Shown here: piece after piece, positions 2,247-55,636 of the stretch
Layout: the number at the start of each line of letters is the position of its first letter
Position numbering within the stretch: the stretch's first letter is position 1
Translations under genes and position numbers: made by a program
The notes under the pieces: generated by a model
Told to the model about the DNA's origin: nothing
The model's input: only the letters and a program-made list of their open reading frames with translations
Databases searched by the model: none
NCBI GenBank assembly: GCA_029265905.1
Contig: JAJUGR010000012.1
Span: 1 to 63,390, forward strand
Length of the DNA: 63,390 bases
DNA from: Sporomusaceae bacterium
Lineage (GTDB): Bacteria; Bacillota; Negativicutes; Acidaminococcales; JAJUGR01
Direction of reading: 5' to 3'

Positions 2247-5086
2247 AGGATAGCATTATTGTCAAAGGGGCCAGGCAGCACAATTTGAAGAACATCACGG
2301 TCGAGATCCCCCGCAACAAGCTGGTGGTGATCACCGGCCTGTCCGGCTCGGGCAAGTCGTCCCTGGCCTTCGACACAATTTACGCCGAAGGGCAGCGCCG
2401 CTACGTCGAGTCGCTGTCGGCTTATGCCCGCCAGTTTCTCGGGCAGATGGACAAGCCGGAGGTCGACTACATTGAAGGCCTGTCGCCGGCCATTTCCATC
2501 GACCAAAAGACGACGAGCCGCAACCCGCGCTCGACCGTCGGCACGGTCACGGAGATTTACGACTACCTGCGGCTGTTGTTCGCCCGGGTGGGGCGCCCGC
2601 ATTGCCCGCAGTGCGGCAAGCCGATCGAACGCCAGACGGTGCAGCAGATGACGGACAAGATCAAGGAGCTGGGCGAAGGGACGCGCTTTCTCGTGCTGGC
2701 CCCGGTGGTGCGCGGCAAAAAAGGCGAGCATCAGAAGGTGTTCGAACAGGCGAAGAAAAACGGCTTCGTCCGCGTGCGCGTCGACGGCGAAGTGCGCGAC
2801 TTGGGCGAGCCGATTGAACTGGAGAAGAACAAAAAGCATTCGATCGAGGTCGTCGTCGACCGGCTGGTGATCAGAGAGGACGTCGCACAGCGCCTGACCG
2901 AGTCGCTGGAAATGGCGCTGACGATGGCCGGCGGGATGGCGTCCGTCGCGGTGGTCGGCGGCGAGGAGTATTTGTTCAGCGAAAATTATGCCTGCGTGAC
3001 GTGCGGCATCAGCGTGCCGGAGATCGCGCCGCGCCTGTTTTCGTTCAACAATCCGTTCGGCGCCTGCCCCGTTTGCACCGGCCTAGGCTTCAAGCAGGAG
3101 GTCGACCCGACGCGGGTGATCCCCGACCGCACGAAGCCCTTGATTGACGGCGCGGTGGAGGCGCTGAGCAAAAACGTGAACTCCTACTATATGTGTCAGC
3201 TTGACGCGGTGGTGGAGGCCCACGGCTACAGCATGTCGAACTGCTGGCGTGACTTGCCCAAGGAACTGCAGCAGCTGATCCTGCATGGTTCGGGCGAGCG
3301 GCGCTTCACCTTTTCGTATGAAAACCTGATGGGTGAGACGCGCCAGCACAGCCCGGTGTTTGAAGGGGTGCTGCCGATGCTGGAGCGTCGTTACCGCGAG
3401 GCGTCCTCGGACGCGATGCGCGAAGAGATCGAGCAGTTCATGAGCATCACGCCCTGCACCGCCTGCAAGGGGGCGCGGCTGAAGCCGGAAGCCTTGTCGG
3501 TTCTGGTGGATGGGCGCAATATTTACGAGGTGACGCGGATGCCGGTCCGGCAGTCGCTGGCCTTTTTCGCCAATCTGGCGCTGACGGAGCGGGAGGCGGC
3601 GATCGCCCAGCAGATTATGAAGGAAATCCGCGCCCGCCTGGAGTTTTTGCTGAACGTGGGGCTTGGCTACCTGACGCTCGACCGGGCGGCGGGTACCCTG
3701 TCCGGCGGCGAGGCGCAGCGGATTCGGCTGGCGACGCAAATCGGCTCAGGGCTGGTCGGCGTGCTCTACATTCTGGACGAACCGAGCATCGGCCTGCACC
3801 AGCGGGATAACAACCGCCTGCTGGACACGCTGAAGCACCTGCGCGATCTGGGCAACACGCTGCTCGTCGTCGAGCATGACGAGGACACGATGTACACGGC
3901 CGACCACATCATTGATATCGGACCGGGAGCCGGCGAGCATGGCGGGCGGGTAATCGCGCAGGGCACGGTCGAAGAGATCAAGGCGACGCCGGAGTCGATA
4001 ACCGGCGCGTACCTGAGCGGGGCGAAATTCATCCCTGTGCCGCTCAAGCGGCGCCAGCCGGGCGACAAGTGGCTGACGGTGCGCGGCGCGAAGGAAAACA
4101 ATTTAAAGGACATCGACGTCGCCTTCCCGCTGGGGCTGCTGACGGTCGTGACCGGCGTGTCCGGCTCCGGCAAAAGCACGCTCGTGAACGATATTCTTTA
4201 CGAGGCGCTGGCGGAGCGCCTCTATTCCGCCCGGCACCGCCCCGGCGCACATGACGCGATCGAAGGCCTGGAGTTTGTCGACAAGATCATCAACATCGAC
4301 CAGTCGCCGATCGGCCGCACGCCGCGCTCAAACCCCGCCACCTATACCGGCGTGTTTGACCAGATCCGCGAGCTGTTCAGCCAAACGCCGGAAGCGAAGG
4401 TGCGCGGCTACAAGCCGGGGCGCTTCAGCTTCAACGTCAAGGGCGGGCGCTGCGAGGCCTGCCGGGGCGACGGCGTCAACAAGATTGAAATGCACTTTTT
4501 GCCGGACGTCTATGTGCCGTGCGAGGTCTGCAAGGGGGCCCGCTATAACCGCGAGACGCTCGACGTGCATTATAAGGGCAAAACGATCGCCCAGGTGCTC
4601 GACATGGTGGTCAGCGAGGCCGTGGAGTTCTTTAAAAATATCCCTCGCATCCATCGCCGCCTGGCGGTGCTGGAAGACGTGGGGCTGGGCTACGTGCGGC
4701 TCGGGCAGCCGGCGACGACCCTGTCCGGCGGCGAAGCGCAGCGCGTGAAGCTGGCGGCGGAATTGGCGCGGCGCAGCACGGGCAAGACGCTGTACATCCT
4801 CGACGAGCCGACGACCGGCCTGCATACGGCTGATATCCACCGCCTGCTCGAGGTGCTGCAGCGCCTGGTGGACGGCGGTGATTCGGTCGTGGTGATCGAG
4901 CACAACCTGGACGTGATCAAGACGGCCGATTACCTGATCGACCTGGGGCCGGAAGGCGGCGACGGAGGCGGCACGCTGGTGGCGGCCGGGACGCCGGAAG
5001 CGGTGGCGCAAGTGGAGGCGTCCCATACCGGCTTTTTCGTCAAGCAGGTGCTGGACAAGGCGCAGCGGGAGGGGTGGCTGGCATGA
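2243..5086 (+). CDS. uvrA: UvrABC system protein A (excinuclease ATPase subunit)
   Basis: UvrA is the dimeric damage-sensing ATPase that delivers UvrB to lesions. The 947 residues contain two ABC ATPase modules: Walker [10 protein letters not shown] at about 32-40 and GVSGSGKST in the second half, plus two LSGGEAQR signature motifs. Zinc-binding CxxC clusters lie near residues 250-280 and 736-765. All are hallmarks of the family at its normal length. The ATG overlaps the uvrB stop and the stop overlaps the uvrC ATG, so the three genes should be translationally coupled and share the upstream SOS promoter. Confidence 0.97.
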
Positions 5087-6891
5087 ACGGCGAATGGCCG
5101 TCCGCGGTGACGCAAACGCTGCAGACCCTGCCGGACAAGCCGGGCGTTTACCTGATGCGCGACGCCAAAGGCCACGTCATTTACGTGGGCAAGGCGCTCG
5201 TGCTGAAAAACCGGGTGCGCAGCTATTTTCAGTCCTCCGCGCGCCACAGCCCCAAGGTCAGGGCGCTGGTGGCGAAAATCGCCGCGCTCGAATACATCGT
5301 GACGGCGACGGAATTGGAAGCGCTGATTTTGGAGTGCAACCTGATCAAGGAGTACCACCCCAAGTACAACATCAGCCTGCGCGACGACAAGTCCTATCCC
5401 TACATCAAGGTGACGACGGGCGAGCCTTATCCGCGCGTGTTTGTGACGCGGCGCGTCGTGCACGACGGCTCGCGCTACTTCGGGCCGTTTGCCAACGCGG
5501 GCGCTGTGCATGAGACGATCAAGCTGATCCGCCAGCTGTTTCCGCTGCGCACCTGCCGCACGATGAACAGCGACCGCCCCTGCCTGGAGCATCACATCAA
5601 GCGCTGCCTGGCGCCGTGTGCGGGCTGCGCTGATCCCGGCGAATACAAGCAGATGATCAGCTCGATTCTGCTGCTCCTCGAAGGGCGCAGCCAGGCGCTG
5701 GTCAGGCAGCTTGAACAAGAGATGCGCGAGGCGGCCGAGAACCTGCTGTTTGAGCGGGCGGCGCGTTTGCGCGACCAGCTCAAAAGCGTCCAGCTCCTGC
5801 AGGAAAAGCAGCACGCTGTGTTGGAAGGCGGCGACCTGGACGTGGTCGGCCTGGCCCGCGACGGGACGGACTGCTGCGTGCAGGTGTTTTTCGTGCGCGG
5901 CGGGCGCATGATCGGGCGGGACCATTTCTTTTTGCAGCAGGCGGGCGAGGAAGAGGACGCCGAGGTTTTGTCGGCGTTTTTGCAGCAATACTACAGCCGC
6001 GCGGCGATGCTGCCCAAGCAGATTCTGCTGCCGGCGGCGCCGCCGGATGAAGCGGTTCTGTCCGACTGGCTCAGCGAAAAGCGCGGCAGCAAGGTAACGC
6101 TCGTCGTGCCGCAGCGCGGCGAAAAGCGCCAGCTGCTGGCGATGGCGGCGGACAACGCGCATACTTTGCTGGCGGCGCGGCGCACGGTCGCCGGGCGGCC
6201 TGATCAGGAGACGGGCGTGGCGGAGCTCGGCGAGGCGCTCGGACTGGACGGATCGCCGGAGGTCATGGAGTGCTTCGATATTTCCCATATCCAGGGGGCG
6301 GAAACGGTCGCCTCGATGGTTGTGTTCCGCAACGGCGAGCCGGACAAGCGTTCCTACAAGCGCTTCAAGATTATTTCCACCGAGGGCAAGCCGGATGATT
6401 TCCGGGCGATGCAGGAAGTGGTGCTGCGCCGCTACTCTAAGAAAGAGTGGCCGCTGCCGGACCTCGTCATTATCGACGGAGGCAAGGGGCAGCTCAGCTC
6501 GGCGCTGACGATCATCCGCCAGCTGGGCCATGCGGCCTTGCCGGTCGTGTCGCTGGCCAAGCAGTTTGAGGAGATCTACAAAGAGGGCGAATCGGCGCCC
6601 GTCGTGCTGCCGCGCGGCAGCGCGGCCTTGAAGCTGGTGCAGCGGATCCGCGACGAGGCGCACCGTTTCGCCATCACGTACCATCGCAAGCTGCGCGGCA
6701 AGCGCAACCTCGCCTCCGTGCTCGACCACGTGCCGGGGATCGGCCCGGCCCGGCGCAAAGCCTTGTGGGCGGCGTTCGGTTCGATTGAGAACATCAAAGC
6801 CGCCGGCGTGGATGCATTGGCCGGCGTGCCGGGAATGAGCAAAACGGCGGCGGAGGCGGTGCATCGCTTTTTCCATCAGCGGCCGCTTTGA
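5083..6891 (+). CDS. uvrC: UvrABC system protein C (excinuclease nuclease subunit)
   Basis: UvrC makes the 3' and 5' incisions around UvrB-bound lesions. The N-terminal GIY-YIG nuclease domain (PGVYLMRD...IYVGKA, roughly residues 17-38) is followed by a cysteine-containing segment, a UVR domain near 200-235, an RNase H-like C-terminal nuclease ([10 protein letters not shown]) and a helix-hairpin-helix pair ([17 protein letters not shown]). I chose ATG 5083, which overlaps the uvrA stop and sits 10 bases after GGGAGG. An in-frame GTG at 5074 lies too close to that ribosome site. Length is 602 residues, normal for the family. Confidence 0.96.
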
Positions 6892-37420: not shown

Positions 37421-37767
37421 GGGGGCGTACTGGTTTCGACAGGGGTCAGTGTGGCAAGATAAGCGAGCTGGGGTTCCATCAGCCCGTTAAACGGTGGGTT
37501 TTAAAGTAAACGCAAACAACGAATACGCTTTAGCAGCTTAATGCTAACGTCTTACCTCTCCTCTTCCTGCGGGCGGGGATAAGGCGACACTTAGCGGGAT
37601 ACCTGAGGCCTGACTCCCGGAGGGCCGACTGGGAAACTTTTCGGGATAGCGGTGCGGCAGCTTGTCAGCCGGCGGCCAAATCGCGAAATCTAAATGACTG
37701 AATGCGCTCGGAGAAAGTTTTGTGGCAGGGCTTCTGGACAGGGGTTCGACTCCCCTCGCCTCCACCA
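37421..37767 (+). ncRNA. ssrA: Transfer-messenger RNA (ssrA)
   Basis: 347 bases. The 5' end GGGGGCG pairs with CGCCTCC before the encoded ACCA, closing the tRNA-like acceptor. GGTTCGACTCCCC near 37743 is the T-arm. The tag reading frame starts at the resume codon GCA (37512) and reads ANNEYALAA before TAA (37539-37541), ending in the ALAA degron for ClpXP. It rescues stalled ribosomes together with SmpB (encoded upstream). It has its own promoter and terminator. Confidence 0.97.
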
Positions 37768-38199: not shown

Positions 38200-38313
38200 G
38201 TTTAGGTGGGAATTTATTTTGTCGAGGCATTGCATTTTTAACGAAATGAGCATATTATAATCATATAATCGCTTAAACGAATATTGGGATTCGGCGCAAA
38301 AGAAGGTGAGGAA

Positions 38314-38655
38314 ATGGAAAAACTGGTCGATGTATTAAAGGCGTTGTCGGACGAAACGCGCTTGCGGATCGTTAATCTGCTGTATGAGCAGGAGCTTTGC
38401 GTCTGCGATGTGATGGCAGCTTTGCAGATACCCCAGGCGAAGGCGTCAAGGCATTTGATCTATTTGAAAAACGCCGGACTCGTGAAGGATCGCAAGCAGG
38501 CGCAATGGGCGTATTATTCACTCGTAAAAGAGAATAAGATGCCGTTTGTTGACAGTCTGGTGCATGACACCATGAGAAAGCAAGCGGCCTACAAAAGCGA
38601 TTTGCAGCAGTTAAACGAGTGGCTGGCGCAAAAAAACGGCAAATGGGATCGCTGA
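38314..38655 (+). CDS. arsR: ArsR-family metalloregulator
   Basis: 113 residues. Winged helix with LSDETRLRIVNLLYEQELCVCDVMAALQIPQAKASRHLIYLKNAGLV. The ELCVCD motif holds the As(III)-binding cysteines of classical ArsR repressors. It should release the operon when arsenite binds. ATG 38314 follows AGAAGGTGAGG. Upstream, two TATAAT elements (38256-38261, 38264-38269) overlap AT-rich half-sites at 38263-38286 that may be the operator. It is the first gene of the arsenic cluster. Confidence 0.92.
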   Translation: MEKLVDVLKALSDETRLRIVNLLYEQELCVCDVMAALQIPQAKASRHLIYLKNAGLVKDRKQAQWAYYSLVKENKMPFVDSLVHDTMRKQAAYKSDLQQLNEWLAQKNGKWDR

Positions 38656-38687
38656 TAATGCGATGAACATAGTTAGGGGATGACGTT

Positions 38688-39692
38688 TTGTTTATATTAG
38701 AATGGCTTAACAATCAATTGCTCAAAATGGAGTGGCTTTCCAATCTGGTCCGCTATCTGGTGGAGCAAGTGCTCGGCCTGAGCGTTCAAGACCGGCTGGG
38801 CGGCAGTATTCACTTTTTCATCTACGACGTTGTGAAGATCTTTATCCTGTTGTCGGTGCTGATTTTCATGATATCGTATGTGCAAAGCTTTTTTCCGCCG
38901 GAACGGACGAGGAAAATTCTCGGCAATTTTAAAGGCCTGTCGGCCAATATCCTTGCCGCTCTATTGGGAACAGTAACGCCTTTTTGCTCGTGCTCTTCGA
39001 TACCGCTGTTTATAGGCTTTACGAGCGCCGGTTTGCCGATCGGGGTTACCTTTTCCTTTCTAATTTCTTCGCCGTTGGTTGATCTGGCCTCCGTGATTTT
39101 GTTGGCCAGCATATTCAACTGGAAAATCGCGATTGCCTATGTGCTCGTCGGACTTGTTCTGGCCGTTATCGGCGGCACGACCATTAGCAAGGCGCAGATG
39201 GAAGAGTATGTGGAGTCATTTGTTTTCAACAGTCCGATGGTTGAAATTGAGCAGGAGGACTTGACAACTGCTGATAGAATTGATTTTGCAAAAAATCAGG
39301 TGCTGGACATTGTTCGGAAAGTTTGGGCGTACGTATTGATCGGTGTCGGCATAGGCGCTGCAATTCATAACTGGATACCGGAAAATGTGATTTCCGCCGT
39401 GCTGGGGCAGGACAAGTGGTACTCGGTGCTCGTGGCGACAGTCGTAGGCGTGCCGATGTATGCCGATATTTTTGGCACGTTGCCTATCGCTGAGGCGTTG
39501 GTGTTGAAAGGCGTAGGGATTGGCACGGCACTGTCGTTCATGATGGCGGTCACGGCGCTCTCTTTGCCCTCGATGATTATGCTGAACAAGGTGATCAAGC
39601 TTAAATTGCTGATGGTGTTTGTCGGGGTTGTCACCATCGGCATCATGATCATAGGCTATGCGTTCAATGCGTTCGGCTATCTGCTGCTGTAA
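38688..39692 (+). CDS. Permease of the ArsP/DUF318 family
   Basis: 334 residues with about eight membrane helices. The GTVTPFCSCSSIPLFIGF motif near residue 96 carries the conserved cysteines of the family, and a second half-motif VVGVPMYADIFGTLPIAEAL appears near 248. ArsP members export organoarsenicals such as roxarsone and methylarsenite; other members are uncharacterised permeases. Co-location with arsR, ACR3 and arsC supports an arsenic role. The start is TTG 38688 with AGGGGATG upstream. Confidence 0.85.
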   Translation: MFILEWLNNQLLKMEWLSNLVRYLVEQVLGLSVQDRLGGSIHFFIYDVVKIFILLSVLIFMISYVQSFFPPERTRKILGNFKGLSANILAALLGTVTPFCSCSSIPLFIGFTSAGLPIGVTFSFLISSPLVDLASVILLASIFNWKIAIAYVLVGLVLAVIGGTTISKAQMEEYVESFVFNSPMVEIEQEDLTTADRIDFAKNQVLDIVRKVWAYVLIGVGIGAAIHNWIPENVISAVLGQDKWYSVLVATVVGVPMYADIFGTLPIAEALVLKGVGIGTALSFMMAVTALSLPSMIMLNKVIKLKLLMVFVGVVTIGIMIIGYAFNAFGYLLL

Positions 39693-39718
39693 GCCTGGTG
39701 AAGATGAGGAGGGGAAAT

Positions 39719-40579
39719 ATGTTTAGAAGAATGCTGATTGCTTCGGAATTGTCGCCGGTCGCCCTCGATATGCTGAAATGCCTTGAGGGGCTGCGCAAGA
39801 TTGGCGCAACGGAATGCCTGCTGGTGCAGTGCTTAAATCCGCAAGACGCGAGCCCCAAGATATCGACTTTCTTAACTTCGATATTGGCCGAAAACCTCAA
39901 GCAGCAAAAAGCAATTCTAGAGGATATGGGGTATGCGGTTGAGACGCGGGTTGTCTCCGGGCTTGCCCGGCAAGAAACGAACCGTATCGCGGTGGAAGAA
40001 GATTTTTCGCTCATTGTAGTCGGCGCCGCCGAACAATCATTGATGGGCGAGGCGGTTTTGGGCGGGATGGCGTATGAGGTGATTCATCATGCCAACCGCC
40101 CTGTATTGCTGGTGCGGACCGCTGACAAACCGATTGCAACAGGCGGCTGCGACATAACCGGTCACTTGTTGTTTCCGACAGACTTTTCGCAAAATGCGGA
40201 AGAGGCGTTTGCGTATGTAAAAAAGATGGTGGCGGACGGCGCGAAAAAAGTCACTTTGGTGCATGTTCAAGATCAGTCGCGCATCAAGCCCGAACAACTG
40301 GAGGCGGCCAACGATGTTGACGGAAAAAGACTGGAACAGCTGCGGCAAGCGCTGCTGGAACTGGGGGGAGCGGAGGTTGACTTGCATTTGCGGTACGGTT
40401 CGCCATCGGTTGAAATAACGAAATTGGTTCGCGAGCAGAATATCTCTTTGGTCGTCATGGGCAGCCAGGGCCGCGGCTTTGTCCAAGAGCTTTATCTGGG
40501 CAGCGTTAGCCACAATGTTGCCAGACACGCGGCGTCGTCTGTGCTGCTCATTCCTGCAAAAAGAGAAACGGCTGAATGA
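39719..40579 (+). CDS. Tandem universal stress protein (UspA family)
   Basis: 286 residues made of two Usp domains: residues about 1-140 (MFRRMLIASELSPVALDML ... LVVGAAEQSLMGEAVLGGMAYEVIHHANRPVLLV) and about 148-286 (HLLFPTDFSQNAEEAF ... VVMGSQGRGFVQELYLGSVSHNVARHAASSVLLIP). The GSxGxG-type nucleotide loop is present in the second. It may bind ATP and sense stress. AGGAGGGG lies before ATG 39719. Sitting between the permease and the DUF2703 gene, it is transcribed with the arsenic genes, though a direct arsenic role is not established. Confidence 0.88.
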   Translation: MFRRMLIASELSPVALDMLKCLEGLRKIGATECLLVQCLNPQDASPKISTFLTSILAENLKQQKAILEDMGYAVETRVVSGLARQETNRIAVEEDFSLIVVGAAEQSLMGEAVLGGMAYEVIHHANRPVLLVRTADKPIATGGCDITGHLLFPTDFSQNAEEAFAYVKKMVADGAKKVTLVHVQDQSRIKPEQLEAANDVDGKRLEQLRQALLELGGAEVDLHLRYGSPSVEITKLVREQNISLVVMGSQGRGFVQELYLGSVSHNVARHAASSVLLIPAKRETAE

Positions 40580-40594
40580 ATGGAGTGAAGCGTG

Positions 40595-41125
40595 ATGAAT
40601 AATAGCAACACATCAGGTTGTTCCTGCAGCGGCGGGTGCTGCCCGCAACCCGAGAAAAGGCTAGTGAAAATTGAGTTCCTGTATCTGGATTTGAGCGTCT
40701 GCGAGCGCTGTCAGGGGGCGGAAAGCAACCTGGACGCAGCTTTGCGCGAGGTTGCGTCTGTGCTCGGGGCCGCTGGCTATGCGGTCCAGGTCGACAAGAT
40801 TAACGTCACAACGCCGGAACTCGCCATCCGGCATGAGTTTGAAAGCTCGCCGACGATTCGCGTCAACGGGAAAGACATTGCCTTGGAAGTCCATGAAACG
40901 CTGTGCCAGGAGTGCGGCGATTTGTGCGGTACTGAGACGCAATGCCGGTCCTGGGTTTATGAGGGCGAGGAGTACGCCGAACCGCCCAAGGCGATGATTA
41001 TCAGCGCCATTTTGAAAGAAGTGTTTGGCGGCGGACAACCGACGGCAACAGAAAAGAAGCCGTACGTCTTGCCGGAAAACCTGGCCGCTTTCTTCGCCGG
41101 TTTGCAAAGCAGACAGGAGCAATAA
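40595..41125 (+). CDS. DUF2703 cysteine-rich protein in the arsenic operon
   Basis: 176 residues with a thioredoxin-like glutaredoxin-size core. An N-terminal cluster CSCSGGCC (about residues 9-15) is followed by VKIEFLYLDLSVCERCQGAESNLDAAL, SSPTIRVNGKDIALEV and ECGDLCGTETQCRSW. Ten cysteines in this short protein suggest thiol chemistry or As(III) binding and handover. The DUF2703 domain recurs in arsenic clusters of anaerobes, but its function is not established. ATG 40595 is preferred to the adjacent GTG. It lies 15 bases after the Usp gene. Confidence 0.85.
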   Translation: MNNSNTSGCSCSGGCCPQPEKRLVKIEFLYLDLSVCERCQGAESNLDAALREVASVLGAAGYAVQVDKINVTTPELAIRHEFESSPTIRVNGKDIALEVHETLCQECGDLCGTETQCRSWVYEGEEYAEPPKAMIISAILKEVFGGGQPTATEKKPYVLPENLAAFFAGLQSRQEQ

Positions 41126-41151
41126 TGAAGCGTTTTTAGGAGGCTGTTATT

Positions 41152-42240
41152 ATGGCAAATGAGCAAACCGCGCGTTTATCTTTTTTAGACCGATATTTGA
41201 CCCTGTGGATTTTTATCGCCATGGCTGTTGGCGTGCTGGGTGGATATGCTTTCCCGGCCACGGCAAAAGCGCTCAGCTCTTTCAGCACGGGGACGATCTC
41301 GTGGCCGATTGCAGTTGGCCTTATCGTGATGATGTACCCGCCGCTGGCGAAAGTGAAGTACGAAGAAATCGGCAAAGTTGCGCAGAATAAAAAGGTTTTC
41401 GCCTTTTCCCTTGTCCAAAACTGGATTATCGGGCCGATTTTAATGTTTGTCTTGGCGGTGCTGTTTTTAAGCGATATGCCCGGCTTTGCCGTAGGCCTAA
41501 TCATCATTGGCTTGGCGCGCTGCATTGCCATGGTTATTGTCTGGAACACGCTGGCTAAGGGTGACAATGAGTATTGCGCCGCATTGGTGGCTCTGAACTC
41601 CATCTTTCAGATTCTGCTGTATACGGGCTACATTTACTTATTTGTGACGATCGCCCCCAAGTGGCTAGGCCTGTCCTGGGGTGGCCAAGTCGTCAACGTG
41701 TCCATGGCGGAAGTGGCCAAAAGCGTGCTGATTTATCTGGGCATCCCGTTTGCGGCTGGTTTCGTCACGCGCTTTAGCCTGATCCGGGCCAAGACGAAGG
41801 AATGGTATGAGCAGGTGTTTATCCCGAAGATTTCGCCGTGGGCCTTGATTGCGCTTCTTTATACGATCGTCATCATGTTCGCCACCAAGGGCGAGGAGAT
41901 CATCAATAATCCGGGCAATGTCGTCCGAATCGCCGTTCCGCTCTTGATTTACTTTGCGGTCATGTTTTTTGTCAGCTTCTACATGTCCCATAAAGGCGGC
42001 TTCCCTTACGAGCAGACGGTCACGCTGGCCTTTACGGCGGCCAGCAACAATTTCGAATTGGCAATTGCCGTAGCCGTTGCGGTATTCGGCATTGCATCTG
42101 ACGCCGCCTTCACTGCGGTCATCGGACCATTGGTTGAGGTTCCGGTGATGATTGCGCTGGTCAATGCCGCCCTGCATTTCAAGAAGAAATGGTATGATCA
42201 TAAAGGTCATCCTATAGATTTTGCGAGGGAGGGAAACTAA
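41152..42240 (+). CDS. acr3: ACR3-family arsenite efflux pump
   Basis: 362 residues with ten membrane helices. The catalytic cysteine motif [12 protein letters not shown] near residue 124 and the second broken-helix motif [20 protein letters not shown] near residue 300 define ACR3 (ArsB type 2) arsenite exporters. Energy comes from the proton gradient. It is the main resistance pump of the cluster. The stop overlaps the arsC start (TAATG). Ribosome site TAGGAGG precedes ATG 41152. Confidence 0.94.
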
Positions 42241-42647
42241 TGGGCAACCCCAAAGTCGCTTTTGTGTGCATTCACAATTCGTGCCGTTCGCAGATGGCGG
42301 AGGCGATTGCCAAAGTGCTTGCGGCCGATGTTTTTGAAGCTTACTCGGCCGGAACAGAAACTAAGCCGCAGATCAACCAGGACGCCGTGGCTGTTATCAA
42401 GGAATTGTATGGCGTCGATATGAATGAAACGCAGCGCTCGAAGTTGCTGCACGAACTGCCGGCGATAGACATTCTGGTTACGATGGGCTGCGGCGTGTCA
42501 TGCCCATATCTGCCCTGCCGGCATCGGGAGGACTGGGGCCTGGAAGATCCGACCGGGAAAGACAAGGCGGCGTTTTTGCGGACGGCCGCGATCATTCGGG
42601 AGAAGGTTTTGGATTTGAAGAATAGAATTGAAAACGGATTGCTGTAA
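42240..42647 (+). CDS. arsC: Arsenate reductase, low-molecular-weight phosphatase type
   Basis: 135 residues of the LMW protein-tyrosine-phosphatase fold. The phosphate loop CIHNSCRSQMAEA starts at about residue 10. Further cysteines lie in MGCGVSCPYLPC near residues 81-92, the redox pair used to pass electrons to thioredoxin. The C-terminal general-acid aspartate is in DWGLEDPTGKD. It reduces arsenate to arsenite for export by ACR3. A long hairpin follows the gene. Confidence 0.92.
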   Translation: MGNPKVAFVCIHNSCRSQMAEAIAKVLAADVFEAYSAGTETKPQINQDAVAVIKELYGVDMNETQRSKLLHELPAIDILVTMGCGVSCPYLPCRHREDWGLEDPTGKDKAAFLRTAAIIREKVLDLKNRIENGLL

Positions 42648-46859: not shown

Positions 46860-47078
46860 ATGGCTGCAAATTTGCCTTTCAAGATCGGGGACACTGTTTA
46901 TGACCGCGATAATAAAAAAGGGACGGTTATTGATTTTCGGCAAGTGGATGTTTCTGACCCGAGCAACGGCGTGTTTTCGTATCGGGTGTCCTGGGAGGCC
47001 GGCGGGATAGAATGGATGGCGGAGGACGCTATTCACAAAGAAGGGTTTTTCCACGCCTTGCTGCACAAACTCAAATAA
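46860..47078 (+). CDS. Small conserved-looking protein, unknown function
   Basis: 72 residues, mixed charge, no signal or membrane segment. It begins FKIGDTVYDRDNKKGTVIDF and continues with YRVSWEAGGIEWMAEDAIHKEGFF, which looks like a small SH3-like or KOW-type beta barrel. ATG 46860 follows GGGAGTGAAGG. It sits alone between the serine hydrolase and the defence operon, and an inverted repeat follows it. Function is unknown. Confidence 0.6.
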   Translation: MAANLPFKIGDTVYDRDNKKGTVIDFRQVDVSDPSNGVFSYRVSWEAGGIEWMAEDAIHKEGFFHALLHKLK

Positions 47079-47160: not shown

Positions 47161-47214
47161 ATGAACAAACCGGCACCTGCGATTGCATACGATAGCGGAT
47201 GCCGGTTTGTTCAT
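47161..47214. repeat. Long inverted repeat before the Wadjet operon
   Basis: ATGAACAAACCGGCA (47161-47175) is the exact complement of TGCCGGTTTGTTCAT (47200-47214), a 15-base stem with 24 bases inside. No T-run follows on the plus strand. It may be a terminator, a small mobile-element scar or a recombination site. The rest of 47079-47373 has no gene. Confidence 0.65.
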
Positions 47215-47274
47215 TCAGCAAAGTGTTCGATTTGCCCTTGCAATTTAGGGCTAAATGATTTTGATGAAATGTCG

Positions 47275-47280
47275 TATAAT
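47275..47280 (+). promoter_or_regulatory. Probable -10 element of the Wadjet operon
   Basis: TATAAT (47275-47280) lies 94 bases before the jetA ATG. The -35 region (CTAAAT/TAAATG near 47251-47257) is poor, so an activator or weak expression is possible. Confidence 0.4.
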
Positions 47281-47373
47281 TAGGAAATGTGGGATATGTT
47301 TAAGCGCGGCTGAAACGATAGTGAGGAACGTTTCTGCAAGCGGATAAATGAAATTCAGACAAGGGGACGTAAA

Positions 47374-48849
47374 ATGTTGGATGCGAGAGATTTGCGGCCG
47401 ATTACCGAGGTTAGCTATTTGACAACGGAAAACGCTTGGCGCTACCGGGCGATCCTGCGCTATTTTTACACCCAGCACGAGAGGTTGCGGCATTATCTTT
47501 ATCCGGAAGAAATTTTTAGCCACTTGAAGCAAAACCCGTATTTTGCGCAATACCAGGAGGAACAGCTGCAGGCGGACTTGAAGCAGCTGAGCGAGTGGAA
47601 GAACCTTATCCCCCGCCAGGAAACAGGCAGAGTGGCGACGATCGAGGATTTTAAGAAAAAGAAGTTCCGCTACCAGTGTACGCCGTATACGGTCGAAATC
47701 GAGCGGATGGTGGAACGACTCGGCGATCTGGGGCAGTCTTTTGGCGGCTCGCTAGAAGCGACGCTGTTCGACCGGCTGCTTGGCGCCTTGCAAAAATTTG
47801 CGGCTGAACTGGACGGAAAGGACAACGCCCAGTTGAACCAGGCCTGGGAGGATGTCTACGGCTATTTTCGCAAAATCGTCGAAAATGCCTCTGACTATAT
47901 TGCCTACCTAAAAAGTGAAAAAGTTGAAGAGCGGATGATGAGCGAGGCATTCCTGGCGTATAAGGAAGCGTTTGCCGACTATATCCGGCGGTTCATTCTT
48001 GATTTGCAAAAGACGTCTTACAACATCGAGCTGGTGCTGCAGCAAGTGAGCCCGGCGAGTTTCCAAGCTGCGGCCGGCCGCCTGGCCGATTACCAGCTCA
48101 GCATTCCGCGGATGGACGAGCGGCTGGATCATAGCAACTTGTCGGGCAAGTACCTGGATCAATGGACGAGCCTTCGTGAATGGTTTTTGGGCTCGGTCGG
48201 ACGGGAAAGCGAGCTGGTATCGCTGGAGCGGGAAACGACGGAAACGATCCGCCGCATTACCCGGTTTGCCCAGCGGCTGGGAGAAAAGCGCCAGGTGATG
48301 AGAAGCCGGCGCCGTGATTATTTGTATCTTGCCGATTGGTTCGGCCGGCTGGAATCAATTGACGAAGCGCATCAATTGGCGGCGGTGCTGTTTGGCGCCT
48401 CCGGCGTCCGACATCTCTATGCGGAGACCGCTGCCAGCGATGATATGTATGCCTCGTTGTGGGAGGCGGAACCGACTGTCGTCACGGTGAAGCCCAGTGT
48501 TGTCGGGTACCGGGAGAAGACCCGCCCGGGGGCGATCGTTGATCTGTCGGTTCAGCAGGCGGCGACTCGGGCTGAATATTTCAAGGCTCGCGCCTTGGAG
48601 GAAACGATATTGGCTGGCTTGGTGGCGGATAACCGGATTGTTGTTTCTCAGCTTGACAGCCAACCGCCTTTTGTCCGCAAGACGCTGTTAAATTGGATTG
48701 GACGCTGCATGGCAAATGCTGAGCGGATCACGAAAACGGAAGCTGGGCGCAAGGTCCGGCTGATCACCGTAAGTGACCGCCAAATAACGCTGGACTGCAT
48801 GGATGGCCGGATCACGATGCCTGATTTTGCCTTTGAGTTTTTGACATGA
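47374..48849 (+). CDS. jetA: Wadjet defence protein JetA (TIGR02677 family)
   Basis: 491 residues. JetA is the kleisin-like (MukF-like) subunit of the Wadjet complex, a structural-maintenance-of-chromosomes system that cuts foreign circular plasmids. The N-terminal region (EVSYLTTENAWRYRAILRYFYTQHERLRHYLYPEEIF) is the family's winged-helix start. The middle is helical, and the C-terminal segment AERITKTEAGRKVRLI is typical. ATG 47374 is preceded by AAGGGGACG. First gene of jetABCD, 19 bases before jetB. Confidence 0.93.
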   Translation: MLDARDLRPITEVSYLTTENAWRYRAILRYFYTQHERLRHYLYPEEIFSHLKQNPYFAQYQEEQLQADLKQLSEWKNLIPRQETGRVATIEDFKKKKFRYQCTPYTVEIERMVERLGDLGQSFGGSLEATLFDRLLGALQKFAAELDGKDNAQLNQAWEDVYGYFRKIVENASDYIAYLKSEKVEERMMSEAFLAYKEAFADYIRRFILDLQKTSYNIELVLQQVSPASFQAAAGRLADYQLSIPRMDERLDHSNLSGKYLDQWTSLREWFLGSVGRESELVSLERETTETIRRITRFAQRLGEKRQVMRSRRRDYLYLADWFGRLESIDEAHQLAAVLFGASGVRHLYAETAASDDMYASLWEAEPTVVTVKPSVVGYREKTRPGAIVDLSVQQAATRAEYFKARALEETILAGLVADNRIVVSQLDSQPPFVRKTLLNWIGRCMANAERITKTEAGRKVRLITVSDRQITLDCMDGRITMPDFAFEFLT

Positions 48850-48868
48850 TGGGTGCGGAGGATAAAAC

Positions 48869-50083
48869 ATGGCCAGTTTAATCGAAAAATTTGAAGATGA
48901 CGATCGCGAGGCCGCCTGTCAGCTGCTGGAAAATTTTTGGGTGTTGCGCGACCGTCAGCCAGAAATCTACCAACTGATTCGAGAGCGGGAACAAAAGCTG
49001 CGCAACTACTTTTCCGACAAGTGCGGCTTTCAGCTGCTTGTTAACCGGCAATTTATCAAGCTGGAGAAGATACCGGACAGGCCGCAAAGCTGGATGGGCG
49101 TGGCGTCGTTTCAACAGTGCCGCGACTACAGCCTGCTTTGCTGTCTGTTGGCTTTTTTAGAGGAGAAGAGCGTTGACGACCAGTTTTTGCTCAGCGAGCT
49201 GTGCGAGACGCTGTTAACCCTGTACCCGCCGGATCGGGAAACGGGTGAACCGATCATTAGCTGGGAAAGCTATGAATGGAGAAAGTCGCTCGTGCGGGTG
49301 CTGACGGCGGCGGTTGATTATGGCGTCGTGGTCAATGTGGATGGCGATATTGCCGGGTTCACCGGCAGCGCTGCAAGTGAAGCGCTGTTTGAGGTGCCAA
49401 TTATGGCACGGTATTTTCTGCGGTCGTACCCAAAAGATTTTCACCAATACGACAGTCTGGACGCCCTGATCGGCGCCGGCGGGCCGATGGAAGATGAATT
49501 GACGGGACGAATCCGAAAACAGCGGGTGTACAAGCAGTTGCTTCTGACGCCGGGCTTTGCGCGGCATGAGGCCAAAGAGGAGGATTTTCTCTACCTTCGG
49601 AATATGCGCAATCGGCTGCGGGAAGATATTGAGGACCACACCGGGCTTCGATTCGAACTGTACAAAGATGATGCACTGCTGACAGTGCCGGCTGAAAAAC
49701 GCTTTCAGATGACGACTTTTCCGGATCGGAGCGGGGCGAGCGCCGTAATGCTGCACTTTGCCGTTACCGTTCGCGAGCATGTCCGGTCTTTGGAAAAGAT
49801 GCCTAGTGAGCAGGGGCTGGCGCTGACCCCGATCGAATTTGACCGGCTCTTGGACGTTTGCCGGCAGTCATACGCTGCGGGCTGGACGAAAGAATACAGG
49901 GAAATGAGCCAGGGCAAGCTGGCTCAGGCGTTGATCCGCCAGTTGGCTGACTGGAAGATGGCCAGGCGGGACTTAGAGCTTGATCTGATCGTGATCAGCC
50001 CGCTGTTGGTGCGGACAGTCGGCGTTTATCCGGGCGACTACGGGCAATCCAAGGTGAGGGAGACAATGGCGAATGAGCGATAA
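48869..50083 (+). CDS. jetB: Wadjet defence protein JetB (TIGR02678 family)
   Basis: 404 residues. JetB is the MukE/KITE-like accessory subunit that bridges JetA and the JetC motor heads. Family-like segments: LLENFWVLRDRQPEIYQLIREREQKLRNYFSDKCGFQLLVNRQFIKLEKIP near the start, and ILTAAVDYG- and EWRKSLVRVLTAAVDYGVVVNVDGD-type sequence in the middle. It overlaps jetC by 11 bases. The start at ATG 48869 has a modest site (GGAGGATAAAAC). Confidence 0.93.
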   Translation: MASLIEKFEDDDREAACQLLENFWVLRDRQPEIYQLIREREQKLRNYFSDKCGFQLLVNRQFIKLEKIPDRPQSWMGVASFQQCRDYSLLCCLLAFLEEKSVDDQFLLSELCETLLTLYPPDRETGEPIISWESYEWRKSLVRVLTAAVDYGVVVNVDGDIAGFTGSAASEALFEVPIMARYFLRSYPKDFHQYDSLDALIGAGGPMEDELTGRIRKQRVYKQLLLTPGFARHEAKEEDFLYLRNMRNRLREDIEDHTGLRFELYKDDALLTVPAEKRFQMTTFPDRSGASAVMLHFAVTVREHVRSLEKMPSEQGLALTPIEFDRLLDVCRQSYAAGWTKEYREMSQGKLAQALIRQLADWKMARRDLELDLIVISPLLVRTVGVYPGDYGQSKVRETMANER

Positions 50084-53000
50084 CAAATGGGTGATGAACC
50101 GGGCCGGCCTGGTTAACTTTTGGTATTACAGCGATGAGGAATATGAATTCGCCAACGGCAAGCTGCTGCTGCGCGGGCTCAACGGGTCAGGGAAATCCGT
50201 GACAATGCAGAGTTTGATTACGGTATTGCTGGACGGCAAGATAACGGCCAACCGGCTGGACCCGTTCGGCTCAAGGGACCGGCGCATGGAGGACTATTTG
50301 CTTGGTGAAAAGGACGTTGTCGACCGGGACGAGCGCACCGGATATCTGTACTTGGAATATAAGCGCGAAAACAGCGACCAATTCCTTACGACCGGCATCG
50401 GCCTGAAGGCGCGGCGCGGCGCCGGACTTGATTTTTGGGGTTTTGTCCTTACGGACAACAGGCGTGTCAAGCGTGATTTTCAGTTGCTGAAAACGGAGTT
50501 CAGTGCTGATGATGGACGAGAAGAAAAAATTCCCCTCACCCGGCCGGAGCTTGAGCGCCAGATTGGCCCGCAGGGCGGCTTTGTCGTGCGCAGCCAAGGT
50601 GAATATGCCGCGCTAGTGAACAAGTATGTTTTTGGTTTTGCCAGCCTGGACGCGTATAAGGATTTGATGGAGCTGCTGATTCAGTTGAGAAGCCCTAAAT
50701 TGTCCAAAGATTTCAAGCCGAGCGTTATTCATGAAATACTCACTGAGTCCTTGCCCTCTCTGTCTGACGAAGAACTGCGTCCGCTTTCGGACACGATTGA
50801 AAACATGGAGCAGACGAAAGCGCAGATTGAAGAGCTGCTGCGTGACCAGACGGCGTTGACCAGGCTTGACCGCCAGTACCGCGACTACCGCGTAGCGGCA
50901 CTGGCGGAAAAGGCGCGCGAATTGGTTCAGGCGGAAAACGTAATGAATAAAGTCGCGCAGTTGCAGCGCGAGAAAACCAAGGAGCAGGAACGTAAAAAGC
51001 AGGAATTGGCGCTGGAAAAGGAACAGAGCAGCGCGTTTGAACGGGAGCAAGAAGTCCTCGTCGCCCAGAAAGCAGAGTTGGAAAGCCACGACGTATTCAA
51101 GGCTGAGGCGAAAAAGCAAGCGCTAGAGGCGCTCATTCACAGCAACAAACAAAAGCGCCAAGATAAGCAAACCGCTTTGCAAGCCAAGCGGCAAAGTGAG
51201 CAAAGGGAGAAAACGTTGCTTGCCGATGAAGAAGCGCAGCTTGATCGCGCGGAGACGGCGATGCTTGAAGTGCTCGACGAACTTGGCTTGCTGGCCGAGG
51301 AAACGGGCTTTGCCGCGCATCCGGCTCTGGCGGGGGCCTTTGAAAAGAATTACGCCGGGGAGTTTTCCTTTACGCACTGGCGGCAGGAACAGCAGGGCTA
51401 CCAACGCCGGGTGAACGACGTCTTAGCTCAAATCCGCGCCCACCTGTCCGCTAAAAGAGAGCAGATGGCGGCGGCGCAGGATGCGGAAAAGGCGCAGATG
51501 GCCTTTGATGCCGTGCGGGCGGAAGTGCGGCGCAGCGAGCAGGTCTTTTTTGACCGCCGCCAGGAGGCAGTGGAACAACTGTATCGCTGGCTCGCTGGCT
51601 GCAAGGAGGTTCTGCCGTTGGCTGCCGACGTGATCAGCCGCGCGGCCGGTGCCGCCCAGCAATTGCACGAGAACACCGATTGGCAGGACGTTAGGGAACC
51701 GGTTGAAGAGGTGTACAAGCGGCAGGAAGATTGTTTGCGGCGGCAGGTCGTGCAGATTGAGGCCGAAGCGGAGCAGTGGCAAGACAAACGGCGGGAATTG
51801 GATAAACAGCTCGCGGAGTGGAAAAGCCAGAAAGACCCGGAACCGCCCCGACATGCTGCCCTGGCGGAAACGCGCCGAAGTCTGGCGGACGCAGGGATTC
51901 CGTTTGTTCCTCTGTATGCCGCAGCGGAATTCAAAGCCGGTGTATCCGACGGGGAGCGTGAGCGGATCGAAACCGTCCTAATGGAGCTTGGCCTGCTGGA
52001 TGCGCTGGTCGTACCAAGCCAGAGTCTGCACAAGCTGCCAGTTGATGCCGTGGACCGGGTCATCTGCCCGCAGCCGGCTATTTTGTGCGCCACGCTGGCG
52101 GATTACCTGGAGCCGACACAGTCGGAAGGGCGAGGCGTACAGGCGAGCGATATTGATGAAGTCCTTCGCAGCATCATTGTCAACGAGACGCCCGGAATCG
52201 GGATCGGCGCAACCGGCACGGCCGCGCCGGAGCTGTCTGTCCAATACGGCACCTATCACAGTGGGATTCTAGCCGGTCGGGCGCCGGCGCGTGACCAGGC
52301 GCTCTATATTGGCCGGGAAGCGCGCCGCCGGCATCGCGAGTTGGAAATCGCCAGGCTGGAGAGGGAAATTGCTGACGTCGATGCGCTGCTGGCGGCGCTG
52401 GCGGGCAGAAAACAGGCAGTCAGGGGACAACTGGCCGAACTGGCGGAGGCGCTGGCGCAGTTCCCGTCAGGTCAGCCGGTCAAAGAGGCCTATGACGGCT
52501 GGCAGGGCAAGTTGCGCGAAGCCGCCATTGAAGAAGAAAACGCCAACCGGAAAAACGAGCTGCTGCGGGAAGCTATCAATAAGGTTCAAGGGCTTTTGCA
52601 TCAACTGCGCCGGCTGGCGGAGGGCTTGCCGACGGCCTTGACGGAAGAGGCGTACGAAGCGGTCTGCCGCCAGACGGCAGAATACAGGGATGGGATTCAC
52701 CAGTTAGAGCTTGCCCGCCAGTCCTACTTGCATAGCCTGGGAAATGTCAAGCAATCAAGACAGCGCTTAACGGAACTGATGGCGGATGTCGATGAATTGC
52801 GCGGCGAGTGCCTGGTTTTGGACGGCGACGTGAAAAAGCAGGAACTGGAACTGCAATGTTTATTGGACCAGTTGGCCGCGATGGGGGCTGAAGAGCTTCG
52901 CCGCCGGAGCAACGCGATTATCGAGCGGCTAAGCAAGCTGCCGGAATTGCAGAAGAAGGCAATCGAAAAAACTGTTCAGCTTGAGATCGAAATCAAACAA

Positions 53001-54245
53001 CTGGAGCAGCAATTGATAGGGTTAGCGGACGAAGCCGTCTTCGCTACCCAGGTGCATGCGTGCTGGCGAACTGTTTACGATAAGGAAGCGGGACTCTGGC
53101 TGGCTGACGGATGGGACAAGGGGGCGGGAAAACCGGCTGACCCGCGCGAAGTGATAGCGAAATATGACAACGCTGCGGAACTGGATCGGGCCAAAACGGT
53201 GGAACGTTTGACTGAAAGTTACTACCGCGAGCAGGCGGTGTTGGTGGAATACCGGATGGAACTGGATGATCTGCCGGCTGACGATCTTTCTGGCGTGAAA
53301 GTCCCGCCGAGCGGCGAGGTCGAAACGCATTTGCGCCGGCTCAGCGACTTGAAGCGGCTCAGCCGCTGCAAACGACTGACGGTGGAGTACGATGGTCGGC
53401 GCGCCAGCCCGCAGGCGGCGCTCGCCTTGATCGAACAGCACATCATCGAGCAGCAGGCGGTGCTGTCCGAGCAGGACCGGGCGCTGTACGAAGAGGTCAT
53501 CATGAACAGCATCGGCCGAGTGATCAGCCGCCGCATCAACAGTGCGGAAAAATGGGTGTCGCAAATGAATGAACTCATGGAGAGCCTGGACACGTCGAGC
53601 GGACTCGCGTTTTCTTTGCAGTGGAAGCCGCATACGGCCGACAACGACGACCAACTCGATACGCAGGAACTCGTTGGCCTGCTCAGGGCGGATCATCGCC
53701 TGCTAAAAGAGGAAGATATCAAGCGCGTGGTGCGGCACTTTCAGTCCAGGATTGCCCAGGCAAAGGCGCTTGCCGCCTCCAAAGCAGTTTCTTTCCAGTT
53801 GATCGTAAAAGAAATGCTGGATTTTCGCCAATGGTTTGCTTTTACCCTGTATTACCGGCGGGAAGGCATGCCGAAAAAGGAGCTTACCAACAGTGTTTTT
53901 GGCAAATTCAGCGGCGGGGAAAAAGCGATGGCTATGTACACCCCGTTATTTTCCGCCGCCTATTCACGGTACGAGGAAGCGAAACCGGATGCGCCGCGCG
54001 TCATTTCGCTAGACGAGGCTTTTGCCGGGGTTGACGAGAACAACATCCGGGAAATGTTCGATTTGGTGGAGAAAATGGGCTTCAATTACATTATCAACTC
54101 GCAATCGCTGTGGGGCGATTACGATACCGTTCGCCGCTTGTCGATCTGCGAATTGGTTCGGCCGAAGAACGCTCCATTCGTCACGGTAGTCCGCTATTTG
54201 TGGGATGGAAATTCCCGCCATGTGCTTTGCGATGAGGTGCTGTGA
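50073..54245 (+). CDS. jetC: Wadjet defence protein JetC, MukB-like SMC ATPase
   Basis: 1390 residues, the normal size for TIGR02680. Walker A GLNGSGKSVTMQ lies at about residues 35-46. A long coiled coil (about 240-520) leads to a hinge region and returns as a second coil (about 760-1090). The C-terminal head carries the signature KFSGGEKAMAMY near 1278 and Walker B VISLDEAFAGVDENN near 1309. ATP-driven loop extrusion on plasmid DNA is the established role. The ATG overlaps jetB and the stop overlaps the jetD start. Confidence 0.96.
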   Translation: MSDNKWVMNRAGLVNFWYYSDEEYEFANGKLLLRGLNGSGKSVTMQSLITVLLDGKITANRLDPFGSRDRRMEDYLLGEKDVVDRDERTGYLYLEYKRENSDQFLTTGIGLKARRGAGLDFWGFVLTDNRRVKRDFQLLKTEFSADDGREEKIPLTRPELERQIGPQGGFVVRSQGEYAALVNKYVFGFASLDAYKDLMELLIQLRSPKLSKDFKPSVIHEILTESLPSLSDEELRPLSDTIENMEQTKAQIEELLRDQTALTRLDRQYRDYRVAALAEKARELVQAENVMNKVAQLQREKTKEQERKKQELALEKEQSSAFEREQEVLVAQKAELESHDVFKAEAKKQALEALIHSNKQKRQDKQTALQAKRQSEQREKTLLADEEAQLDRAETAMLEVLDELGLLAEETGFAAHPALAGAFEKNYAGEFSFTHWRQEQQGYQRRVNDVLAQIRAHLSAKREQMAAAQDAEKAQMAFDAVRAEVRRSEQVFFDRRQEAVEQLYRWLAGCKEVLPLAADVISRAAGAAQQLHENTDWQDVREPVEEVYKRQEDCLRRQVVQIEAEAEQWQDKRRELDKQLAEWKSQKDPEPPRHAALAETRRSLADAGIPFVPLYAAAEFKAGVSDGERERIETVLMELGLLDALVVPSQSLHKLPVDAVDRVICPQPAILCATLADYLEPTQSEGRGVQASDIDEVLRSIIVNETPGIGIGATGTAAPELSVQYGTYHSGILAGRAPARDQALYIGREARRRHRELEIARLEREIADVDALLAALAGRKQAVRGQLAELAEALAQFPSGQPVKEAYDGWQGKLREAAIEEENANRKNELLREAINKVQGLLHQLRRLAEGLPTALTEEAYEAVCRQTAEYRDGIHQLELARQSYLHSLGNVKQSRQRLTELMADVDELRGECLVLDGDVKKQELELQCLLDQLAAMGAEELRRRSNAIIERLSKLPELQKKAIEKTVQLEIEIKQLEQQLIGLADEAVFATQVHACWRTVYDKEAGLWLADGWDKGAGKPADPREVIAKYDNAAELDRAKTVERLTESYYREQAVLVEYRMELDDLPADDLSGVKVPPSGEVETHLRRLSDLKRLSRCKRLTVEYDGRRASPQAALALIEQHIIEQQAVLSEQDRALYEEVIMNSIGRVISRRINSAEKWVSQMNELMESLDTSSGLAFSLQWKPHTADNDDQLDTQELVGLLRADHRLLKEEDIKRVVRHFQSRIAQAKALAASKAVSFQLIVKEMLDFRQWFAFTLYYRREGMPKKELTNSVFGKFSGGEKAMAMYTPLFSAAYSRYEEAKPDAPRVISLDEAFAGVDENNIREMFDLVEKMGFNYIINSQSLWGDYDTVRRLSICELVRPKNAPFVTVVRYLWDGNSRHVLCDEVL

Positions 54246-55636
54246 TGGATGCGGTTTTAACGGTAAAGGCTGCTCAGGCGGCAGCGTTTTTTCGCAGCCA
54301 GCCTGGCTTTTCCCGTCTCTTTGCCGCGCTTGCACAAAAGTACCGGAGCCTTGGGAAGATTGGCGGCAGCATCAAACTGGAAGGCTTGGAAGAAGAAGAG
54401 ATTCAGGCGCTGGCCTCTTTTTTTCGCATCAACTTGAAGGGGGGCAGGACGGTCCGCATTTCCTTTGACCAGTTCGCGGCGGCGTTGCAGGAAACCCGGT
54501 TTGGCGATGTTGACGTGGTTGCGCTGCTGCAGGCCTATTTGGGCGGGGCGCTGATTACGAATCGGCAGCGAAAAGATGCGGCTAGGAGAGCCAGAGAGAT
54601 GTTTTTTTCTGATCTGCGGGCCGGAGAACAAGGGTCGCGGGGGCGGCAGTGGCTGTCAAAGGTGGAGGCAAGGTGCGCTGGCGCTAGACGAGCCCAAGCC
54701 ATGTATGAGCAGGGGCACCCGAATAACCTGGTTGCCTTCAAAACTATACTTGCCGCTTTAAACAACCTGCCGGCTGACTATTTGCGTCTGCCGTTTTTCG
54801 CGCAGCAGATTGCAGGCCATCCTCATGCGTTCGACGGCAACACAAGCCTAGGAAGAATGTTTTTGGAGGCTCTGCGTCTGACTCAACCAGATGCGGCGAA
54901 CGGCTTTGAAGAAAACGCGCGAGAAGGGGTCACCGCTGTCGAACTGGAAGCGGAGCTGCTATATGAGGTTAAGCTGCTGCGGGATGATTTGCTGAATTTT
55001 GTCACCTGCACTGGCCTTTTGGGCGACAAGCGGGCGCGCGATTCCCAGGCGGCGTCCGCCTACTGGCGGCAGGCGTGGGAAGATGACGCGGTTTTAAATG
55101 TTCCATTGCGGGAACTGGTCAAATACGCTTCTTTTTCCCCGCTGCGCAGCGCTGATGAGCGACAGGAGCGCAAGGTGTTTATCGTTGAGAACTCCGGCGT
55201 ATTTTCGGCCATTACAGATTACGCCATGGGACAAGGCGGCCGGTTGCCGCCGCTGGTTTGCCTGCACGGCCAATTTAAATTGGCCTCCTGGGCTCTCTTG
55301 GACCGACTTGCGGCTGGCGGGTGCTCCTTGTACTATTCCGGAGACTTTGATCCGGAAGGGCTGCTGATGGCGGAGCGGCTGGTCAAGAGGTATCCCGGCT
55401 CTGCCAAGCTGTGGCGTTACGGCAGGGAAGAATGTATGCGCAGCCTGGCTGTTGGTGACAGCTTGCGGGCAGACGTGCTCAGCGCCAGCCGGTTGAAACA
55501 GTTGGATAAGCTTAGCCTGCCGGAGCTTTGCGATGTTGCGGAACTTTTGAAAGAAACAAACCGCGTCGGGTACCAAGAAGCCCTGGTGGATCAGCTTGTG
55601 GCGGACTGCGTGCCACTAGCAGGACAATCAAGATAG
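54245..55636 (+). CDS. jetD: Wadjet defence nuclease JetD (TIGR02679 family)
   Basis: 463 residues. JetD is the topoisomerase-VI-A-like nuclease that cleaves the plasmid after the motor stalls. Its TOPRIM domain is visible: the acidic residue in IVENSGVFSAI near 313 and the D-x-D in YYSGDFDPEGLLMAERL near 363-375. The N-terminal half (helical, HTH-like) contacts DNA. ATG 54245 overlaps the jetC stop; a GTG at 54242 is also possible. The catalytic residues are intact, so the system appears functional. Confidence 0.94.
   Translation: MDAVLTVKAAQAAAFFRSQPGFSRLFAALAQKYRSLGKIGGSIKLEGLEEEEIQALASFFRINLKGGRTVRISFDQFAAALQETRFGDVDVVALLQAYLGGALITNRQRKDAARRAREMFFSDLRAGEQGSRGRQWLSKVEARCAGARRAQAMYEQGHPNNLVAFKTILAALNNLPADYLRLPFFAQQIAGHPHAFDGNTSLGRMFLEALRLTQPDAANGFEENAREGVTAVELEAELLYEVKLLRDDLLNFVTCTGLLGDKRARDSQAASAYWRQAWEDDAVLNVPLRELVKYASFSPLRSADERQERKVFIVENSGVFSAITDYAMGQGGRLPPLVCLHGQFKLASWALLDRLAAGGCSLYYSGDFDPEGLLMAERLVKRYPGSAKLWRYGREECMRSLAVGDSLRADVLSASRLKQLDKLSLPELCDVAELLKETNRVGYQEALVDQLVADCVPLAGQSR

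Follow-up and report, generated by a model that had tools for sequence, protein, structure and literature searches.

The window, a stretch of 63,390 nucleotides from a Sporomusaceae bacterium, harbors a complete type II Wadjet operon, jetABCD, which is predicted to encode a circular-DNA-cleaving machine composed of an SMC motor and the JetD nuclease and which was probably gained horizontally. We assign this reading a probability of about 0.92. The four genes are adjacent and co-directional, and their products belong to the JetA2, JetB2, JetC2 and JetD2 families, the set that defines type II. With the PADLOC models, JetA matched PDLC00540 (JetA2, E 8e-182), JetB PDLC00542 (JetB2, E 5e-130) and JetD PDLC00556 (JetD2, E 7e-132), each over nearly the full length, and JetC matched PDLC00551 (JetC2, E 0, 1535 bits) over residues 2-1386. 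The Pfam families PF09660 (DUF2397) for JetA (E 6e-141), PF09661 (DUF2398) for JetB (E 1e-97) and both PF11796 (DUF3323, E 2e-45) and PF09664 (DUF2399, E 3e-27) for JetD were also recovered, and JetC carries PF13558 (SbcC_Walker_B). All four proteins exceeded the cut-offs of TIGR02677 (JetA, 377 bits, cut-off 166), TIGR02678 (JetB, 268 bits, cut-off 125), TIGR02680 (JetC, 912 bits, cut-off 463) and TIGR02679 (JetD, 220 bits, cut-off 196), which are named in NCBIfam as hypothetical families only. A preceding sequence-only reading had described the locus as a complete type I system; its completeness holds, as four full-length genes are present, whereas the type has to be corrected, since all four proteins fit the type II models.

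The four open reading frames were located on the forward strand exactly where this reading had placed them and in the canonical order (Table 1). They had been called overlapping or nearly so, and the measured spacing agrees with this: 19 bp separate jetA from jetB, and jetB/jetC and jetC/jetD overlap by 11 bp and 4 bp. The jetD start is a GTG that overlaps the stop codon of jetC and is immediately followed by an ATG. Internal stops are absent from all four frames, so that 8.3 kb are entirely open, consistent with the earlier statement that no frameshift is present. Shuffling the mononucleotides of the region 200 times gave a longest open run of 266 codons, versus 1390 for JetC, which excludes chance as the origin of these frames. 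Each of jetA, jetB and jetC is preceded by a purine-rich stretch resembling a ribosome binding site (judged by eye, unscored). Transcription from the upstream gene probably ends at the hairpin that precedes jetA; jetABCD would therefore be expected to have a promoter of its own within positions 47215-47373. One weak sigma-70-like match was found in the promoter search, and the total of matches was not above chance expectation. Before the hairpin, a 72-aa open reading frame (46860-47078) precedes the operon and showed no match in Pfam, NCBIfam or PADLOC.

Table 1. Features of the jetABCD locus, in coordinates of the window.
Feature	Position	Strand	Description or basis
hairpin	47161..47214		23-nt arms, 87% complementary, 8-nt loop; between upstream gene and jetA
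jetA	47374..48849	+	491 aa; kleisin-like subunit, JetA2; DUF2397; TIGR02677
jetB	48869..50083	+	404 aa; KITE-like subunit, JetB2; DUF2398; TIGR02678
jetC	50073..54245	+	1390 aa; SMC/MukB-like motor ATPase, JetC2; TIGR02680
JetC Walker A RGLNGSGKS, residues 34-42	50172..50198	+	alignment of JetC rows
JetC hinge-containing segment, residues 581-781	51813..52415	+	alone matches 9qe0 JetC 575-747, E 4e-23
JetC ABC signature SGGEK, residues 1280-1284	53910..53924	+	identical in 85/85 JetC rows
JetC Walker B LDE, residues 1313-1315	54009..54017	+	identical in 85/85 JetC rows
jetD	54242..55636	+	464 aa; TOPRIM nuclease, JetD2; DUF3323 + DUF2399; TIGR02679
JetD TOPRIM glutamate E316	55187..55189	+	79/79 JetD rows
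JetD TOPRIM D368-x-D370	55343..55351	+	D at both sites in 79/79 JetD rows

The proteins were also analyzed for conservation of their catalytic residues, based on alignments of 85 JetC and 79 JetD proteins. The ATPase motifs of JetC and the TOPRIM acids of JetD, which the sequence-only reading had regarded as intact, are present and invariant or nearly so across these alignments. Within the Walker A motif, positions 34, 35, 37, 38 and 40-42 are identical in all 84 rows that have letters there, and position 39 in 82 of them. At columns conserved to at least 95%, the window departs from its relatives twice in JetA, three times in JetB, five times in JetC and once in JetD. Several of these substitutions are conservative (K for R, I for L, F for Y) and others, such as R273 for N and C1099 for R in JetC, are not; no catalytic motif residue is among the deviating positions. 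In JetD, C398 replaces an otherwise invariant tyrosine and sits in a local insertion of uncertain alignment. As the catalytic residues that were checked are present and invariant or nearly so, the operon is very probably functional; its expression and activity in the host are inferred. A locus that looks intact yet is silent or inactive, retained for now after horizontal gain, would agree with the lack of a clear promoter, with the deviation at position 398 of JetD and with the existence of an interrupted relative in another genome (G269). This alternative is considered unlikely, since the 8.3 kb are open throughout and the catalytic residues, together with nearly all of the columns conserved to at least 95%, are kept in all four proteins.

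The operon lies among metabolic genes, which encode a cobalamin-dependent ribonucleotide reductase, a beta-lactamase-fold protein, a PfkB-type sugar kinase and a UbiD/UbiX-type decarboxylase set. A location within a defence island was rejected, as ten neighboring proteins had no PADLOC match. The window represents contig 34 of a 42-contig genome of 2.42 Mb, with an estimated completeness of 98.8% and an estimated contamination of 1.6%. No 16S rRNA gene was found in this genome by an Rfam search, and the assembly is hence probably a metagenome bin. The plasmid markers Rep_3 (PF01051) and relaxase (PF03432) had no match in the genome, a draft bin of a kind that often loses plasmids. Elsewhere in the window, a tmRNA gene (37421-37767) is positioned exactly at a drop in G+C content from ~61% to ~54%. 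A genomic island at this ssrA gene was considered and rejected: no second ssrA 3' end is present in the window, no integrase was found among the adjacent open reading frames examined, and 54% G+C lies inside the normal range of the genome. To the right of the tmRNA gene, positions 38284-42647 harbor an arsenic-resistance-like cluster with an ArsR-type regulator, a SaoE-like permease (below the curated cut-off), a Usp-like protein, a DUF2703 protein, an SBF/ACR3-like exporter and an LMW-phosphatase/ArsC-like protein. The genes uvrB, uvrA and uvrC are located together in one operon at 222-6891.

The evolutionary origin of the operon was assessed by comparison with a genome of the same class and another order (G312), which carries a type II jetABCD of the same gene order in different genomic surroundings. 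The Jet proteins of the window and of this genome share 77% (JetA), 74% (JetB), 69% (JetC) and 60% (JetD) identical residues, compared with 41% for the chromosomal SMC and 58% for Rnr, which is encoded on the same contig as jetABCD. In three genome pairs within the family of G312, the identities of SMC and JetC are 69/64, 68/64 and 72/82. SMC and JetC thus diverge about equally within this family, and JetC is not simply a slowly evolving protein. The JetC tree groups the window and G312 as sisters with a support of 100/100. A topology that unites the three rows of the G312 family and excludes the window was rejected with a p-AU of 0.0008, the clade for this constraint having been picked after the first tree was seen. 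For SMC, joining the host with G312 was rejected (p-AU 4e-61). The simplest reading of these data is that the host lineage probably acquired jetABCD by horizontal transfer from a source close to that of G312, in another lineage of the class. This direction is suggested by the finding that jet genes are absent from the other genomes sampled in the order of the host.

Marks of the transfer itself were searched for and not found: the flanks are not shared, the base composition is not unusual, and neither repeats at the flanks nor a duplicated ssrA were seen. The G+C content of jetABCD is 56.5%, with a genome sample mean of 56.3%, and within ~6 kb on either side the jet loci of the window and of G312 have no flanking gene in common. 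Tentatively, the jet cassette may have passed between the orders without a trace of a mobile element, and an anti-plasmid system would then spread without a small circular intermediate; at present this is rather doubtful. A contig mis-binned from another organism would mean that there was no horizontal gain at all, and the draft state of the genome, which is probably a metagenome bin with no 16S gene found, and its 1.6% estimated contamination would be compatible with this. Such an error is improbable. Rnr is 51-62% identical to that of all 13 comparison genomes and is not specially close to G312 (58%), which argues against a contig that merely strayed in from a G312-like genome. In addition, the genes adjoining jetABCD are not common to related jet loci, and the G+C content of the operon equals the genome sample mean.

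The distribution of related loci was analyzed by scanning genome contigs for JetC. A scan with the single sequence gave no match, and an alignment-based scan identified 484 relatives, of which the best 80 were retained. Nearly all of these 80 loci show the gene order A-B-C-D. The sole locus among them with the order D-A-B-C belongs to Sulfidibacter corallicola (Acidobacteriota; L077:3645-12278). The named relatives are from Bacillota (Bacillaceae, Sporomusaceae, Selenomonadaceae, Clostridia and others) and from one member of the Acidobacteriota. A jetC above the TIGR02680 cut-off occurs in 32 of 380 genomes of the class and, within the host's order as sampled, in no genome other than the host. 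In G269, a type II jetC on contig 5 (~206757-210900) is split into three matches and interrupted by three TGA and one TAA stop codons; it apparently represents a decayed system. The host genome encodes one Wadjet system, an SbcC-like protein and a chromosomal SMC.

JetA, JetB and JetC are homologues of the SMC-kleisin-KITE complex MukBEF, and the locus could on these grounds be regarded as a chromosome-organizing condensin of the MukBEF or MksBEF kind that has no role in defence. This is very improbable. The jetC gene overlaps a gene for a TOPRIM nuclease that is syntenic in nearly all of the best 80 relatives, and the genome already encodes a chromosomal SMC. The patchy distribution within the class and the probable horizontal history also speak against a condensin.

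The assignment to type II was examined further with the models of the other types. A type I Wadjet, built from the type I JetA-JetD families, would have the identical four-part architecture and gene order and draws weak, partial matches of JetC to JetC1 (E 1e-16, residues 1213-1341 of the head region) and of JetD to JetD1 (E 3e-4), but is extremely improbable and was rejected by profile searches under PADLOC's definitions, since JetA and JetB had no match to the PADLOC models JetA1 and JetB1 at E <= 0.001 and the type II models score far better and at full length for all four proteins. The matches to type III models are marginal (JetC3, E 2e-4; JetD3, E 6e-6), and JetA and JetB do not match the PADLOC models JetA3 and JetB3. 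The type I systems of Bacillus cereus Q1, E. coli GF4-3 and Pseudomonas aeruginosa PA14 share the kleisin-KITE-SMC-TOPRIM architecture and the mechanism (PMC10586767), whereas their JetA and JetB come from other domain families and the similarity of JetC and JetD is weak and partial.

Type II membership is also reflected in structural comparisons. JetA, JetB and JetC match chains E, D and A of PDB entry 9qe0 end to end (E 5e-132, 1e-87 and 2e-276, respectively). For JetA and JetB, no PDB entries other than 9qe0 and 9qe1 were related in sequence, and for JetC these two scored far better than any other entry. Going by how their molecules are named and by published work, we take both entries to be nvJET, the type II complex of Neobacillus vireti LMG 21834; a structure of the N. 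vireti type II complex is cited in reference 30 of PMC12647877 as Roisne-Hamelin et al., Structure 2025. nvJET shares with the window system the type, the end-to-end match of JetA, JetB and JetC and an alignable hinge segment, and differs from it by sequence divergence only, the window system being known from its sequence. The hinge of nvJET has no channel, which makes bypass of obstacles impossible (PMC12647877). Such a hinge is known from this one member and may not be a defining trait of type II. The alignment of the hinge-containing segment to 9qe0 predicts a similar behavior for JetC of the window.

JetD did not match any PDB entry by sequence, neither as a single sequence nor as a profile. 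An AlphaFold model, computed from the window protein and 73 relatives, reached a pLDDT of 93 and a pTM of 0.86. In a Foldseek search it matched the topoisomerase VI A subunit 1d3y (E 2.8e-5, probability 1.00), and all four matches below E 0.001 were topoisomerase VI. The modelled fold of JetD thus matches that of topoisomerase VI A, with CAP and TOPRIM parts. The metal-binding acids of topoisomerase VI A consist of a glutamate followed 52 residues on by a D-x-D motif, and the spacing between E316 and D368-x-D370 of JetD is the same. JetD differs from topoisomerase VI A in being encoded in an SMC operon without a topoisomerase partner subunit, and in type I JetD the catalytic tyrosine is missing (PMC10586767).

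A mechanism can be proposed in which the extrusion and cleavage steps are drawn from published type I and type II complexes. JetA, JetB and JetC would together form an SMC motor dimer, which would load onto DNA and extrude loops with the use of ATP. On a small circle extrusion would go to completion, and the stalled motor would switch on the JetD dimer, whose topoisomerase VI A-like CAP and TOPRIM domains would cut the DNA regardless of sequence. This cutting would lead to the loss of small circular plasmids. The type II complex nvJET cleaves naked circular DNA in vitro (PMC12647877), and circles larger than ~100 kb escape Wadjet (PMC10586767, PMC12647877). Plasmid-borne relatives of type II jetC number 24; the 20 that were listed are all located on plasmids of at least 149 kb, mostly from Streptomyces, and most of these relatives are distant ones. 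No relative was found in viral contigs or phages. The size of the plasmids carrying the listed relatives and the lack of a phage relative fit the published escape of large circles.

The resistance of the host to circular plasmids, which the sequence-only reading had expected, would follow from membership in the Wadjet family. In Clostridium cellulovorans, deletion of the native Wadjet genes jetABCD raised conjugation ~10^5-fold (PMC12287153). That Wadjet explains why such organisms are hard to modify, as also suggested, is plausible, although a culture of the present host may not exist. Should the host or a relative be brought into culture, deletion of jetD would be the obvious first move toward transformability.

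The jetABCD operon of the window is one more case of a well-described system, and the corrected subtype and the probable horizontal gain are the results that are added. An intact type II operon is thereby placed in an order in which no other sampled genome has one. The correction of the subtype alters the predictions, because type II has a subunit composition different from that of type I, and the single type II complex studied is unable to step over DNA obstacles owing to its closed hinge. With its probable acquisition from another lineage of the class, the operon would provide a clear case of a system that blocks small plasmids and has itself spread horizontally.
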